A DNA stretch of 64,000 nt from Stackebrandtia nassauensis DSM 44728 (lineage in GTDB: Bacteria; Actinomycetota; Actinomycetes; Mycobacteriales; Micromonosporaceae). The DNA is taken from NCBI RefSeq assembly GCF_000024545.1, contig NC_013947.1:744001-808000 (forward strand), read 5' to 3'. Both the position numbers and the translations under genes were made by a program. Positions 13,457 through 64,000 of this stretch are shown here, one piece after another; position 1 is the first letter of the stretch, and each line of letters starts with the position of its first letter. The notes under the pieces were generated by a model, which made no database searches, had not been told where the DNA came from, and worked only from the letters and a program-made list of their open reading frames with translations.

Positions 13457-14224
13457 ATGAACGACGGTAAGCATGCGGGCGACGGTGGTCCGGCTGAGTA
13501 CGCCGAAGGCCGGGTCACCGAGCCGCTCGATCCTCCCAGTCAACGACGTCCCTCCGAAGGCGCCGCTCCCGACATCGCCGAGGACGACCTGAAGGGTTTC
13601 CGCTTCGACGCGTCGGGCATGCCCTTGGGCCCCAGCGACATGCCGGTGCCGGACGTCCCGTCGCCGCTGGCGGCGCGCTACCTGTTCCCCACCGAGAAAT
13701 ACCGCGGCGAATGGCGCCGCCACTGGATCCACCTGATGCCGGTCATCGTGATCGGCGTACTGGCCACCTTCGTGGGCGGCTACATCACCGGCGTGTTCGG
13801 CAAGGGCGGCAACTCCACCCTCGTCACCGGCGTCATCGTCGTCTACCTGTGCATCCTGCTGTGGGGTGCCTGGCGGGTCTTCGACTGGTACTTCGACCGC
13901 TTCATCCTGACCAACAAGCGGGTCATGGTCATCAACGGGATCATCACCCGCAAGGTCGCGATGATGCCGCTGCTGCGGGTCACCGACATGAAGTACGAGC
14001 AGTCGCCGCTGGGCCGGATGATGAACTACGGCAGCTTCGTGATGGAGTCGGCCGGTCAGGACCAGGCGTTGCGCGAGGTCAAGCACCTGCCCGACCCCAA
14101 CGAGCTCTACCTCCAGATCTGTGAGGAGATGTACGAGCCCGAGGCCGTCGACGCCCGCGACACCGTGGACGAGAGCCTCGACGAGCCGCTGACCGCCGAC
14201 AACAAGCAGGGCGGCGACGCCTGA
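13457..14224 (+). CDS. Bacterial PH domain (YdbS-like) membrane protein
   Basis: 255 residues. The first 75 or so are hydrophilic and acidic; two transmembrane helices follow (WIHLMPVIVIGVLATFVGGYI and VTGVIVVYLCILLWGAWRVF). Then comes a bPH2-type domain (WYFDRFILTNKRVMVINGIITRKVAMMPLLRVTDMKYEQ) characteristic of YdbS/YdbT-like proteins, and an acidic C-terminal tail. Such proteins are membrane-bound with a cytoplasmic PH domain and no settled function. It is paired with the preceding 50-aa membrane protein. Confidence 0.85.
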   Translation: MNDGKHAGDGGPAEYAEGRVTEPLDPPSQRRPSEGAAPDIAEDDLKGFRFDASGMPLGPSDMPVPDVPSPLAARYLFPTEKYRGEWRRHWIHLMPVIVIGVLATFVGGYITGVFGKGGNSTLVTGVIVVYLCILLWGAWRVFDWYFDRFILTNKRVMVINGIITRKVAMMPLLRVTDMKYEQSPLGRMMNYGSFVMESAGQDQALREVKHLPDPNELYLQICEEMYEPEAVDARDTVDESLDEPLTADNKQGGDA

Positions 14225-14255
14225 GACGCTCGCGTCCTCATCGTCGGCCGTCGCG

Positions 14256-14756
14256 CTACTTCACCGGCACCGCGCAGATCTCCCAGTAGATCTTGCCCCG
14301 CCGTCCCCGCTCGGAGAAGCTCTCACCGTCCGGGTGGTCCAGGCACACCGAGGGGTTGCCCCGGCCGGACTGCTTGTTGACGACCTCGAACTTGGCGCTG
14401 GCGCCGTCGCACGGCACGATCTCCAGACCACCGATGAACCGGTCGTCCATGCTGGCCAGGCACTGGCCGACGTTCGGCTCCGACTTCGTCATCTGGACCG
14501 CGAAGAAACCGCCGCCCAAGACGACCACCAGGACCAGCCCCAGCCAGCTGATGTTCTTGCGGCGCTTGGGCGCCGGCTGGTACGCGGGCGGCTGGTACGC
14601 CGGGGGCCGCTGCTGGAACTGCGGCGGCGGGGCGTAACCCGGGCGCTGCTGTTGCGGCGGGTACTGGTAGCCGTACTGCTGTTGTGGATAACCCTGTGGC
14701 GGCTGTGGATAACCCTGTGGTCGCTGTGGATGGCCGTACTGCGGCGGATAGGACAT
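14256..14756 (-). CDS. Single-pass membrane protein, LppU/SCO3897-like
   Basis: 166 residues. The first 75 are a Pro/Gln/Tyr-rich low-complexity region with repeated GYPQ-type units, reflected in repeated TTATCCACAG blocks on the plus strand around 14690-14720. One transmembrane helix follows (WLGLVLVVVLGGGFFAVQM), then a small extracytoplasmic domain with VGQCLASM...VPCDGASAKFEVVNK...CLDHPDG...WEICAVPVK. The four spaced cysteines fit the LppU_SCO3897 family of actinobacterial surface domains. Function unknown. ATG 14756 is chosen because it opens the repeat region. Confidence 0.75.
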   Translation of the reverse strand: MSYPPQYGHPQRPQGYPQPPQGYPQQQYGYQYPPQQQRPGYAPPPQFQQRPPAYQPPAYQPAPKRRKNISWLGLVLVVVLGGGFFAVQMTKSEPNVGQCLASMDDRFIGGLEIVPCDGASAKFEVVNKQSGRGNPSVCLDHPDGESFSERGRRGKIYWEICAVPVK

Positions 14757-14854
14757 GGTGCCGACTCCCTGGGGCATCGAAGGGGTTGTTCGTTGACCCA
14801 AGGAAACGCGTTCGCCGCGTCCGGATCATCACCAATCCGTGCCGCGAGTGCCGA

Positions 14855-16210
14855 TCAGGCCCACACGAAATACCGTAGCCACAGGTAGGGGGTGACGATC
14901 GAAATCGTCACCAAGGTGACGACGAGCCCGTACTTCGTGAACTCCCAGAACGAGATCTTGTGCCCGGCCCGGGCGGCGATGCCCAGCGCCACCACGTTGG
15001 CCGAGGCGCCGATAGCGGTGGCGTTGCCGCCCAGGTCGGCGCCGAAGGCCAGCGCCCACCACAGCACGTGCGACTGGGAGGTGTTCCCCGCGTCGTTGAC
15101 GAGCTGGTCGACGATCGGGGCCATAGTCGCCACGTACGGGATGTTGTCGACGATCGCCGACAGCACCGCCGAGGCCCACAACAGCACCATCGAGGCGCCC
15201 AGCAGGTTGTCGCCCATCGCGTCGGAGGCCGCCGAGGCGACCGTGCCGATGACCCCGGTGTGCACCAGCGAGCCCACCATGATGAACAGCCCGGCGAAGA
15301 ACGCCAGCGTCTCCCACTCGACGTCCTTGAACACCGACTGGCCCGACAGCCGGTTCGGCGACAGGTTCGAGTGCCGGTGCCGCATCACCACCGGTGAGGC
15401 GATGACCTGCGCGGCGGCGAAGATCGTCAGCCCGCCGATCATCGCGACCACCGAGGCCTCGACGTGCAGGACGGTGTGCAGTGTGAACGCGGCCAGCACC
15501 AGGCCCAGGATCGTCAGCGACACGATCAGCAGCAGCGGGTCCTTGATGGCGTCGCGTTCCCGCAGCGCCATGATCGAGGCGACCCGCTCGGGGTCGTAGC
15601 GGAACTTCTTGCGGAACATCAGCCAGCACAGCCCGACGAACACCACGATCAGCAGCACCACCAGCGGCGCCATGTGGATCAGGAAGTCGTTGAAGCTCAG
15701 CTCGCCCTGCGCGGCGATGATGATGTTGGGCGGGTCGCCGATCAGCGTCGCGGTGCCGCCGATGTTGGAGGCCATCACCTCGGCGATGATGAACGGCACC
15801 ACCGGCAGGTTCAGCCGCTCGCACACCAGGAACGTCACCGGCGCGATCAGCAGCACCGTGGTGACGTTGTCCAGCGCGGCCGAGGCGATCGCGGTGACGA
15901 GCACCAGGATCACCATCACCTTGAACGGCCTGCCCTTGGCCCGTTTCGCCGACCAGATCGCCAGGAACTCGAACACACCGGTGCGCTTGAGCACCGCCAC
16001 GATCAGCATCATGCCCAACAGCAGGAAGATGACGTTCCACTCGATGCCGGTCTTCTGCTCGAAGAACGCGGTGTCGGCGGTGGAGGCGCCGATGAGGAAC
16101 ATCAGGACGGCGCCGCCCAGTGCGGCGGTCACCTTGTTGATCTTCTCGGTCGCGATGAGGACGTAGGCGCCGGAGAACACGGCGATGGCGGCCCAGGCTT
16201 GCCAAGTCAC
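14855..16210 (-). CDS. SLC13/ArsB-NhaD family ion permease
   Basis: About 451 residues with 11-12 hydrophobic helices. The two conserved repeats are seen as ASAALDNVTTVLLIAP with ASNIGGTATLIGDPPN, and SAIVDNIPYVATMAPIV with GADLGGNATAIGASANVV. These are typical of the ArsB/NhaD/CitMHS ion transporter superfamily. Such permeases move arsenite, Na+/H+ or dicarboxylates; sequence alone does not decide, and no ars genes are adjacent. GTG 16210 is chosen because AGGAG is 9 bp upstream on the minus strand; a longer frame from 16288 has no ribosome site. Confidence 0.85.
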   Translation of the reverse strand: MTWQAWAAIAVFSGAYVLIATEKINKVTAALGGAVLMFLIGASTADTAFFEQKTGIEWNVIFLLLGMMLIVAVLKRTGVFEFLAIWSAKRAKGRPFKVMVILVLVTAIASAALDNVTTVLLIAPVTFLVCERLNLPVVPFIIAEVMASNIGGTATLIGDPPNIIIAAQGELSFNDFLIHMAPLVVLLIVVFVGLCWLMFRKKFRYDPERVASIMALRERDAIKDPLLLIVSLTILGLVLAAFTLHTVLHVEASVVAMIGGLTIFAAAQVIASPVVMRHRHSNLSPNRLSGQSVFKDVEWETLAFFAGLFIMVGSLVHTGVIGTVASAASDAMGDNLLGASMVLLWASAVLSAIVDNIPYVATMAPIVDQLVNDAGNTSQSHVLWWALAFGADLGGNATAIGASANVVALGIAARAGHKISFWEFTKYGLVVTLVTISIVTPYLWLRYFVWA

Positions 16211-61304: not shown

Positions 61305-61349
61305 CGATCGATCCCGAACGGCCGCTGTCAGGTCGGTCGGGATCGATTG
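61305..61349. terminator. Hairpin after the beta-helix gene
   Basis: CGATCGATCCCGA at 61305-61317 pairs with TCGGGATCGATTG at 61337-61349 (one G-T pair), enclosing GGCCGCTGTCAGGTCGG. It has no T-run, but its position just after the stop suggests it ends the transcript and separates the encapsulin gene from the uronate island. Confidence 0.6.
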
Positions 61350-61491: not shown

Positions 61492-62895
61492 ATGCCAGAC
61501 ATTTCAACCATGTCAGAGCAAGAACAGCAAGCTCAGAGCCTGTCCACCGCGGCGGCGCGGAATCTGGCGACGACGACCAAGTCGACGCCGCAGATGCAGG
61601 GGATCTCGGATCGCTGGCTGCTGCGGGTGTTGCCGTGGGTGCAGACCAACGGCGGTGCCTACCGGGTCAACCGTCGGCTCACCTACACCGTCGGGGATGG
61701 ACGGGTCACGTTCACCAACGTCGGTTCCGAGGTACGGGTGGTACCGCCGGAGCTGCGCGAACTGCCGCCGCTTCGCACCTATGAGGACGACGAGGTGCTG
61801 CAGACCCTGGCGGGCCGGTTCGTCCAGCAGGAGTTCGAACCCGGCGCGGTCATCGTCGAGCCGGGCCGCGCGATCGACGAGGTCTACCTGATCGCGCACG
61901 GCAAGGCGAACAAGGTCGGTACCGGCGCCTACGGCGACGACACGATCCTCGGGGTGCTGGCCGACGGGCAGTACTTCGGCGAGGAGTCCCTGACCGAGGA
62001 CGACGCCCAATGGGGATACTCGGTGAAGGCCGTGACCGCCTGCACCGTCATGATGCTGCCCCGGCAGTCCTTCCAGGACCTGATGGAGCAGTCGGAGGAC
62101 CTGCGCGACCACATCGACGACTTCCGGGAGTTCACGCACCACCGGCACAACCAGCACGGCGAGGCCGAGGTCGCCGTGTCCGCCGGGCACAGCGGCGAGG
62201 TCGAACTGCCGGGCACGTTCGTCGACTATGAACTGTCGCCCCGGGAGTACGAGCTCAGCGTCGCCCAGACCGTGCTGCGGGTGCACAGCCGGGTCGCCGA
62301 CCTGTACAACGAGCCGATGAACCAGCTGGAGCAGCAGCTGCGGCTGACCATCGAGGCGCTGAAGGAGTGCCAGGAGAACGAACTCATCAACAACAAGGAG
62401 TTCGGTCTGCTGCACAACGCCGACTTCAAGCAGCGCATCTCGACCCGCACCGGACCGCCGACCCCGGACGACCTCGACGAGCTGCTGTGCCGTCGCCGTC
62501 GTACCAACGTGATGCTGGCGCACCCGCAGACCATCGCCGCCATGGGACGCGAGTGCAACAAACGCGGCATCTACCCGCAGAGCATCGACTTCCACGGGCA
62601 CATGATGCCGACCTGGCGCGGCGTGCCGGTGCTGCCGTGCAACAAGATCCCCGTGACCGAGAACCGGATGAGCTCGATCATCGCGATGCGGCTCGGCGAG
62701 GAGAGCCAGGGCGTCATCGGTCTGCACCAGACCGGCATCCCCGACGAGTACGAGCCGGGCCTTTCGGTGCGGTTCATGAACATCAACGAGAAGGCGATCA
62801 TGTCCTACCTGGTCAGCGCCTACTACTCGGCGGCGGTGCTGGTGCCCGACGCGCTGGGTGTGCTGGAGAACGTCGAGATCGGACGGTTCGACTAG
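61492..62895 (+). CDS. Family 2B encapsulin shell protein with cyclic-nucleotide-binding-like domain
   Basis: 467 residues. An N-terminal arm (1-90; [24 protein letters not shown]) precedes a CRP-like beta-barrel at about 101-205 ([42 protein letters not shown]). The shell domain of the SrpI / major-membrane-protein-I type follows ([88 protein letters not shown]). Such proteins assemble into HK97-fold protein nanocompartments that enclose an enzyme encoded nearby. The next gene, a polyprenyl diphosphate synthase, is the likely cargo. ATG 61492 follows GGGGGA; GTG 61480 is possible. Confidence 0.92.
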
Positions 62896-62977
62896 TCCTG
62901 GTCCGCAGGCGCCGGTCCCGGCTGACAGAGTCGGGACCGGCGCCGACCCCACATCCCACCTGAGCACGAAAGGCACC

Positions 62978-64000
62978 ATGGACACCATTGACGTGATCCC
63001 GGGCTCCCGGTCGGCGCGGGAGATCCTCAGCCACAGCCGCACCCTGGTCGATCCCGGTCTGCGAGCCGCCGTCGACACGCTTCCACCGCCCACGCGGCAC
63101 ATCGCCGGATACCACTTCGGATGGTGGGACGAGAACGCCGAGCCCGCCGAACACAAGGCGGGCAAGGCGATCCGTCCGGCGCTGGTGCTGTTGTGCGCCA
63201 GAGCGGTGGGTTCCTCCGACATCGAGGCGCTGCCCGCCGCGGTCGCCGTCGAACTGGTCCACAACTTCTCGCTGGTCCACGACGACGTCATCGACCGCGA
63301 CGTCACCCGCCGCCACCGGCCCACCGCCTGGAGCGTCTTCGGCGACGGCGCCGCGATCCTGGCCGGGGACGCGATGTCGACGCTGGCCTGCGCGGTGCTG
63401 GCCGACAGCGGTCACCCGGCGGCGATGGACGGCATCAAACTGGTCAACCGGGCGATCCAGGAACTCATCGACGGCCAGCACGCCGACGTCAGTTTCGAGA
63501 CCCGCGAACAGATCGATCCGCAGGAGTGCCGGGCCATGGCCGCCGCCAAGACCGGCGCGCTGCTGGGCTGCGCCTGCGCGATCGGCGCCCGCTTCGGCGG
63601 CGGCAGCCCCCATCAGGTGGAACGCCTGCGCGCCTTCGGAACCGACCTCGGGCTGGCATTCCAGCACGTCGACGACCTGCTCGGCATCTGGGGCGACCCG
63701 CAGGCCACCGGCAAACCGGTGTACTCGGATCTACGCAGCCGCAAGAAGTCGCTGCCGGTGGTGGCGGCGCTGGCCTCCGACTCCCCGGCCGCCGCCGCGC
63801 TGTCGAGCCTGTACTCGGGCACCGAACCGTTGCGGGACGAGGAGATCACCCGCGCCGCCGCGCTCATCGAGGAGGCGGGCGGTCGACAGTGGAGCAGCAC
63901 CGAGGCCGCCGGACTGCTCGACCGCGCCCTGGCGTCACTGGCCGAGGTCGGCGCCGAGGAGTCCGCCGCCAGCGACCTGACCACCCTCGCGCGGCTGGTC
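62978..64000 (+). CDS. Polyprenyl diphosphate synthase (3' end outside window), likely encapsulin cargo
   Basis: 341 residues visible; the frame is still open at the window edge. Trans-prenyltransferase that condenses isopentenyl diphosphate with an allylic diphosphate. KAGKAIRPALVLL binds diphosphate; the first Asp-rich motif is HDDVIDRD (Asp102, Asp103, Asp106); the second is HVDDLLGIWGD (Asp232, Asp233, Asp240), where the third Asp of DDxxD is Gly. The last visible part is helical. The N-terminus before the fold is short (about 35 residues). It starts 82 bp after the encapsulin gene on the same strand and AAAGG precedes ATG 62978. Confidence 0.9.
   Translation, partial: MDTIDVIPGSRSAREILSHSRTLVDPGLRAAVDTLPPPTRHIAGYHFGWWDENAEPAEHKAGKAIRPALVLLCARAVGSSDIEALPAAVAVELVHNFSLVHDDVIDRDVTRRHRPTAWSVFGDGAAILAGDAMSTLACAVLADSGHPAAMDGIKLVNRAIQELIDGQHADVSFETREQIDPQECRAMAAAKTGALLGCACAIGARFGGGSPHQVERLRAFGTDLGLAFQHVDDLLGIWGDPQATGKPVYSDLRSRKKSLPVVAALASDSPAAAALSSLYSGTEPLRDEEITRAAALIEEAGGRQWSSTEAAGLLDRALASLAEVGAEESAASDLTTLARLV

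Follow-up and report, generated by a model that had tools for sequence, protein, structure and literature searches.

According to the accessible part of PMC8049743, a polyprenyl diphosphate synthase gene is the commonest neighbour of Family 2b encapsulin shells. PMC8346489, again in its accessible part, describes the combination of shell and polyprenyl synthase as a cargo class, reports that such systems often encode genes for terpenoid precursors, and gives polyprenyl transferase cargos 50-100 disordered N-terminal residues; a term search of its main text did not return ispH, which the supplements may name. A further point of reference is the two-component encapsulin of S. lydicus (PMC12407261, as far as its accessible text goes), in which Enc2, unlike Enc1, forms shells by itself, two short motifs distinguish the two proteins, and the self-assembling one yields 28-nm shells. 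Among the titles and abstracts found by a literature search, none reported a function for a polyprenyl-synthase encapsulin. Judged by listing, no match for encapsulin together with IspH was on topic, and encapsulin together with Stackebrandtia gave no match.

The window analysed here is the whole stretch of 64,000 nucleotides at G000:C1:744001-808000, from a host genome of 6,841,557 bases on a single contig; the locus lies at its downstream end (Table 1). The first-pass annotation had seen a candidate prenyl-diphosphate nanocompartment at this position, and this observation is right: the locus joins an already described kind of nanocompartment. Like the 2B-polyprenyl transferase operons of PMC8346489 and PMC8049743, as their accessible parts present them, it combines a cNMP-domain shell with a synthase gene. 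To the known kind it adds a link to IspH with a control, a synthase with a short N-terminus, and the pattern that single shells show at motif 1. Our best explanation, to which we assign a probability of roughly 0.6 as a whole, is that the genes for shell, prenyl-diphosphate synthase and IspH, at the least, are co-transcribed as one operon, that its shell protein would assemble by itself with the synthase inside as cargo, and that IspH would supply precursors from outside.

Table 1. Features of the locus in window coordinates.
Feature	Position	Strand	Basis and remarks
Strong hairpin	61305..61349	+	Between beta-helix gene (end 61294) and shell gene; possible terminator, no T-run
Family 2B encapsulin shell protein, 467 aa	61492..62895	+	NF041163, PDB matches, motif table; single-shell locus, RR at diagnostic motif 1
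Inserted cyclic-nucleotide-binding-like domain, residues 113-200	61828..62091	+	PF00027 (cNMP_binding), E 6.2e-18
SrpI-like HK97-type part, residues 215-465	62134..62886	+	PF19307, E 1.8e-140
Polyprenyl (geranylgeranyl-type) diphosphate synthase, 346 aa	62978..64000 in window, stop ends 64018	+	PF00348, NF041169

The shell frame, read from ATG 61492 to the stop at 62895, is open already from TTG 61351. Its product scores 781 bits against the NCBIfam profile NF041163 (encap_f2b; cut-off 400) and 362 bits against the 2A profile NF041162, just under the cut-off of 380. A search against encapsulin family profiles had been proposed by the first-pass annotation, and the protein passes as Family 2B by a wide margin; the layout claimed there, an HK97-like shell with an inserted domain, is likewise borne out by PF19307, PF00027 and the above-cut-off match to NF041163. 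The best-matching solved structures, 9bix, 9bhu and 9bje (E 1.8e-204 to 1.8e-197), align from residues ~8-13 to 464-465, nearly the whole length. Both 9bix and 9bje carry the published S. lydicus motifs and, to go by these, probably belong to the accessible account in PMC12407261. The nearest named relative, from Stackebrandtia albiflava, is 75% identical.

Cyclic-nucleotide-binding domains carry a phosphate-binding Arg in their binding cassette. At the presumed equivalent position, assigned by hand in the alignment, this Arg is absent from the inserted domain of the window shell and replaced by Trp; counting the window's own row, Trp stands there in 186 of 188 distinct shell rows. The inserted domain is most likely unresponsive to cAMP or cGMP, and it most likely covers a pore, as PMC12407261 proposes. 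The accessible text of that paper also cites earlier work in which the Family 2B domain binds no cyclic nucleotide.

Across 190 shells from 112 loci, motif 1 reads RR in nearly all single shells (33 of 34) and second shells (77 of 78), and in no first shell (0 of 78). The count covers the copy in the window itself and a locus that is represented twice (L076, L113), takes the first shell of L133, broken at motif 1, as lacking RR, and includes two contig-end loci (L039, L089) that may be miscalled as single. The exceptions are the single shell of L118 and a second shell cut by a contig end. The window shell carries RR like the other single shells, and we therefore infer that it is of the self-assembling type at motif 1; assembly itself would follow by analogy from one experimental case. 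On the accessible text of PMC12407261, the window shell resembles the S. lydicus system in being Family 2B with motif 1 of the self-assembling type, and differs from it in having one shell gene rather than two and a prenyl synthase rather than a xylulose kinase. L118 (G076) is the sole single shell with a first-shell-type motif 1 (VWKDPGF), and its adjoining synthase ends in RRRY.

Downstream, the synthase frame opens at ATG 62978 and leaves the window, with its stop at 64018 (L009 3979-5019). It matches polyprenyl_synt (PF00348) at E 6.2e-58 and, over the 341 residues inside the window, reaches 471 bits against NF041169 (cut-off 450), a family that NCBIfam names as a Family 2 encapsulin cargo; the adjacent gene had been called a trans-prenyltransferase, and both profiles agree. 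Against NF045549, the equivalog for the GGPP synthase IdsB, it scores 347.5 bits, below the cut-off of 475. Both Asp-rich motifs are intact (HNFSLVHDDVIDRD and QHVDDLLGIWGD), and an aromatic residue, Phe, stands five residues before the first of them. Phe occupies this position in 47 of 48 shell-linked synthases, the split frames of the doubly represented locus L076/L113 having been omitted from the table. A Phe placed in this way is typical of C20 synthases, and the product is most likely C20 geranylgeranyl diphosphate, a chain length deduced from sequence. In the shell-linked synthase of L080 the Phe is replaced by Ser, which presumably would allow longer products. A model of the 341 residues from the ATG, built on an alignment of 18 sequences, has a mean pLDDT of 91.9, with values below 50 at residues 1-8 only and helices at 13-32 and 37-46. 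In fold it is like PDB 3nf2, the Streptomyces coelicolor polyprenyl synthetase (TM 0.92, 48% identity, 334 alignment columns).

Read from the ATG, the modelled window synthase lacks a disordered N-terminus of 50-100 residues and is in this respect unlike the cargos in the accessible part of PMC8346489. An alternative in-frame GTG at 62858, within the shell gene, would lengthen it by 40 residues and could conceivably be the start; the ATG is favoured because an AAAGG stretch lies just upstream of it. In 27 of the 48 shell-linked synthases the farthest start leaves at most 58 residues before the column of window residue 44, and in these no start could add more than ~15 residues to the window-type length; the other 21, including the window's with 83 residues, could have longer N-termini. 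Starts in the synthase table were set at the codon nearest the window ATG, which biases it toward short N-termini, while the farthest-start count is unbiased. No loading tag was found in the window synthase. A C-terminal R-D-H or R-D-R occurs in 32 of 48 shell-linked synthases and was rejected as a specific loading tag, since similar endings, such as VARTH, VDRSK, IDRDR and VERDR, occur in synthases of these genomes that are not near a shell.

The first-pass annotation had suggested extending the locus past 64000. The next gene is ispH, starting at 64018 (L009 5019) with an ATG that overlaps the synthase stop by one base, followed by a convergent frame and then an M15-peptidase-type gene. IspH catalyses the final step of the MEP isoprenoid pathway. 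Shell and synthase had been taken to form a unit of their own, to which the overlapping ispH adds a third gene; the terpene cyclase or further prenyl enzyme anticipated beyond the window end gave way to ispH. None of ten downstream ORFs scanned gave a terpene cyclase, and a cyclase adjoining the unit was rejected. The IspH of this locus has a LytB domain (PF02401, E 9.6e-94), C17, C101 and C198 are invariant in a three-sequence alignment, and read from its ATG it has no N-terminal extension. Its frame has no stop at the usual end (L009 5950-6452, window coordinates 64949-65451, outside the window) and continues ~165 residues beyond the aligned end, antisense to the convergent frame L009 5955-6428 (-), which scores 38.9 bits against NF047960 (cut-off 100); a long C-terminal IspH domain was rejected on this ground in favour of run-on.

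Gene order was followed in a sample of 200 genomes of the same taxonomic order, in 36 of which a shell was matched at E 1e-50 or better; 28 were judged true 2B, and 8 were judged 2A-like because they match only from profile position ~208 onward. Among 30 loci fetched from 27 genomes besides the window's, 22 have a synthase next to the shell or close by, and 14 of these 22 also have IspH. The order shell-synthase-IspH is found in all five other family genomes with a shell match (G157, G070, G105, G119, G169) and in Stackebrandtia albiflava (L027); at least 20 family members among the genomes listed have no shell match, and 144 matchless genomes lie outside that listing. Among the best 80 of 360 named loci, some of them cut by contig ends, a synthase scoring above 200 bits is present in 26, of which 9 also have IspH. 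Shell and synthase trees co-diverge over 47 loci, with L118 excluded for its lack of an RR shell (Mantel r 0.78, which host kinship alone can raise; 0 of 2000 permutations as high). In both trees the three sequences of Stackebrandtia type, those of the window, L027 and L107, group as a single clade (support 0.99 and 0.66), and the four g4 family members fall outside it. The tie between polyprenyl transferases and Family 2 encapsulins on which the first-pass annotation drew is upheld by the cargo profile NF041169, the recurrent pairing and the co-divergence.

It is possible, if unlikely, that the synthase works outside a shell which is empty or holds something else, the genes travelling together as one pathway. 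Such an arrangement would suit the missing loading tag and the nearly fully ordered synthase model, as well as four cargo-type synthases from four genomes (L151-L154) that lie away from any shell, score 356-366 bits to the window's and are similar to that of L118. It fits poorly with the placement of the synthase at the shell in 22 of 30 fetched order-sample loci, and with the rank of this gene as the most often reported Family 2b neighbour in the accessible part of PMC8049743. We continue to favour a synthase enclosed by the shell.

In 27 genomes, 15 of 23 shell-linked synthases (those no more than 8 kb from a shell) have IspH within 3 kb, against 6 of 105 other synthases, with a Fisher p of 1.3e-9 that is too small because related genomes are not independent; the remaining 8 of the 23 have no IspH within that distance. 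This control leaves out G033 (74% complete, split genes), synthase rows G192:C29 and G004:C1:1191569, the weak LytB row G090:C16, the shell fragment G180:C22:35980 and the shell rows of the 8 2A-like genomes. The recurrent adjacency, like the one-base overlap of synthase and ispH, could also be read as a sign that IspH is a second cargo, in which case HMBPP would enter the shell, prenyl diphosphate would leave it, and an oxygen-sensitive Fe-S enzyme would be sheltered. An N-terminal extra of ~115 residues on the IspH of L010, with similar-looking regions in L080, L122, L127, L128 and L135, would agree with this reading, but the window IspH has no such extension from its ATG, and such fusions are not shell-specific, since the ispH of L158, which has a synthase 2.6 kb away and no shell nearby, is N-terminally fused to a phosphorylase (PNP_UDP_1) domain. 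An enclosed IspH would moreover have to be reached by the electron donor that it needs. We regard IspH as a second cargo as improbable. The corresponding organelle, a shell enclosing both enzymes for the route from HMBPP to C20 prenyl diphosphate and loaded via the folded enzymes with no peptide tag, is a decidedly improbable form of it. The extra region on the L010 IspH (13910-15175) has no Pfam match and may be a worn-down phosphorylase, because the fused part in L158 is PNP_UDP_1.

In the explanation we prefer, with IspH outside, the shell protein alone would form a closed Family 2B shell, with the folded synthase retained inside through some contact. IspH, presumably outside the shell, would convert HMBPP to IPP and DMAPP, which would pass the shell pores and be joined by the synthase, most likely to C20 geranylgeranyl diphosphate. 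The locus is a compact case, comprising a single shell, a synthase whose tail is short or absent, and a single precursor enzyme. It allows two questions to be told apart: by what means a cargo lacking any known tag enters the shell, and whether the compartment includes the supply of precursors.

The same genome holds a second Family 2B locus at 2.11 Mb (L010, G000:C1:2103000-2122999), with a terpene cyclase, two shells, a synthase, IspH, DXS and IspG on the - strand, and a further divergent LytB. The cyclase scores 496 bits against NF041167 (cut-off 400), and its N-terminal part contains GPVGLGT, a near match to the published GPTGLGT; the synthase, at 431.6 bits, falls below the NF041169 cut-off of 450. 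Like the window locus it has Family 2B shells, a cargo-like synthase and IspH, and it differs in its two shells, its cyclase with GPVGLGT, its DXS and its IspG. A two-shell locus whose terpene cyclase bears a published targeting-type motif is a natural comparison in the same genome. The window shell might in principle co-assemble with the two shell proteins of this locus and share its cargo, given two Family 2B loci in one genome, the accompanying cyclase, DXS, IspG, IspH and synthase, and the mixed shells of S. lydicus in the accessible text of PMC12407261; but the same-genus genome G157 and the four other matching family members need no partner shell, because each has a single shell gene. 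Such co-assembly is barely credible, and a shell built from the window protein alone remains our preferred reading.

Upstream of the shell gene, the hairpin has a 13-pair stem within a larger fold (-42.1 kcal/mol, z -4.8), equalled by 0 of 200 shuffles. The claim that the genes are isolated by a hairpin stands as to the hairpin; isolation of the shell-synthase unit from the upstream genes is likely, and no more than likely because no T-run follows in the sequence and the terminator scan did not report it. The upstream genes (a beta-helix protein, an NAD-dependent epimerase/dehydratase-type protein, an IclR regulator and an extracellular solute-binding protein) would be compatible with the uronate island proposed earlier.

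A carotenoid or squalene sink for the product was rejected, there being no SQS_PSY match anywhere in the genome. Terpene_syn_C_2 has three matches in it, all elsewhere than the window unit: one at 2.11 Mb and two at 1.20 Mb (one 780-aa frame). At G000:C1:1200951-1202651 a single frame carries two terpene synthase domains, which we take to be geosmin-synthase-like.
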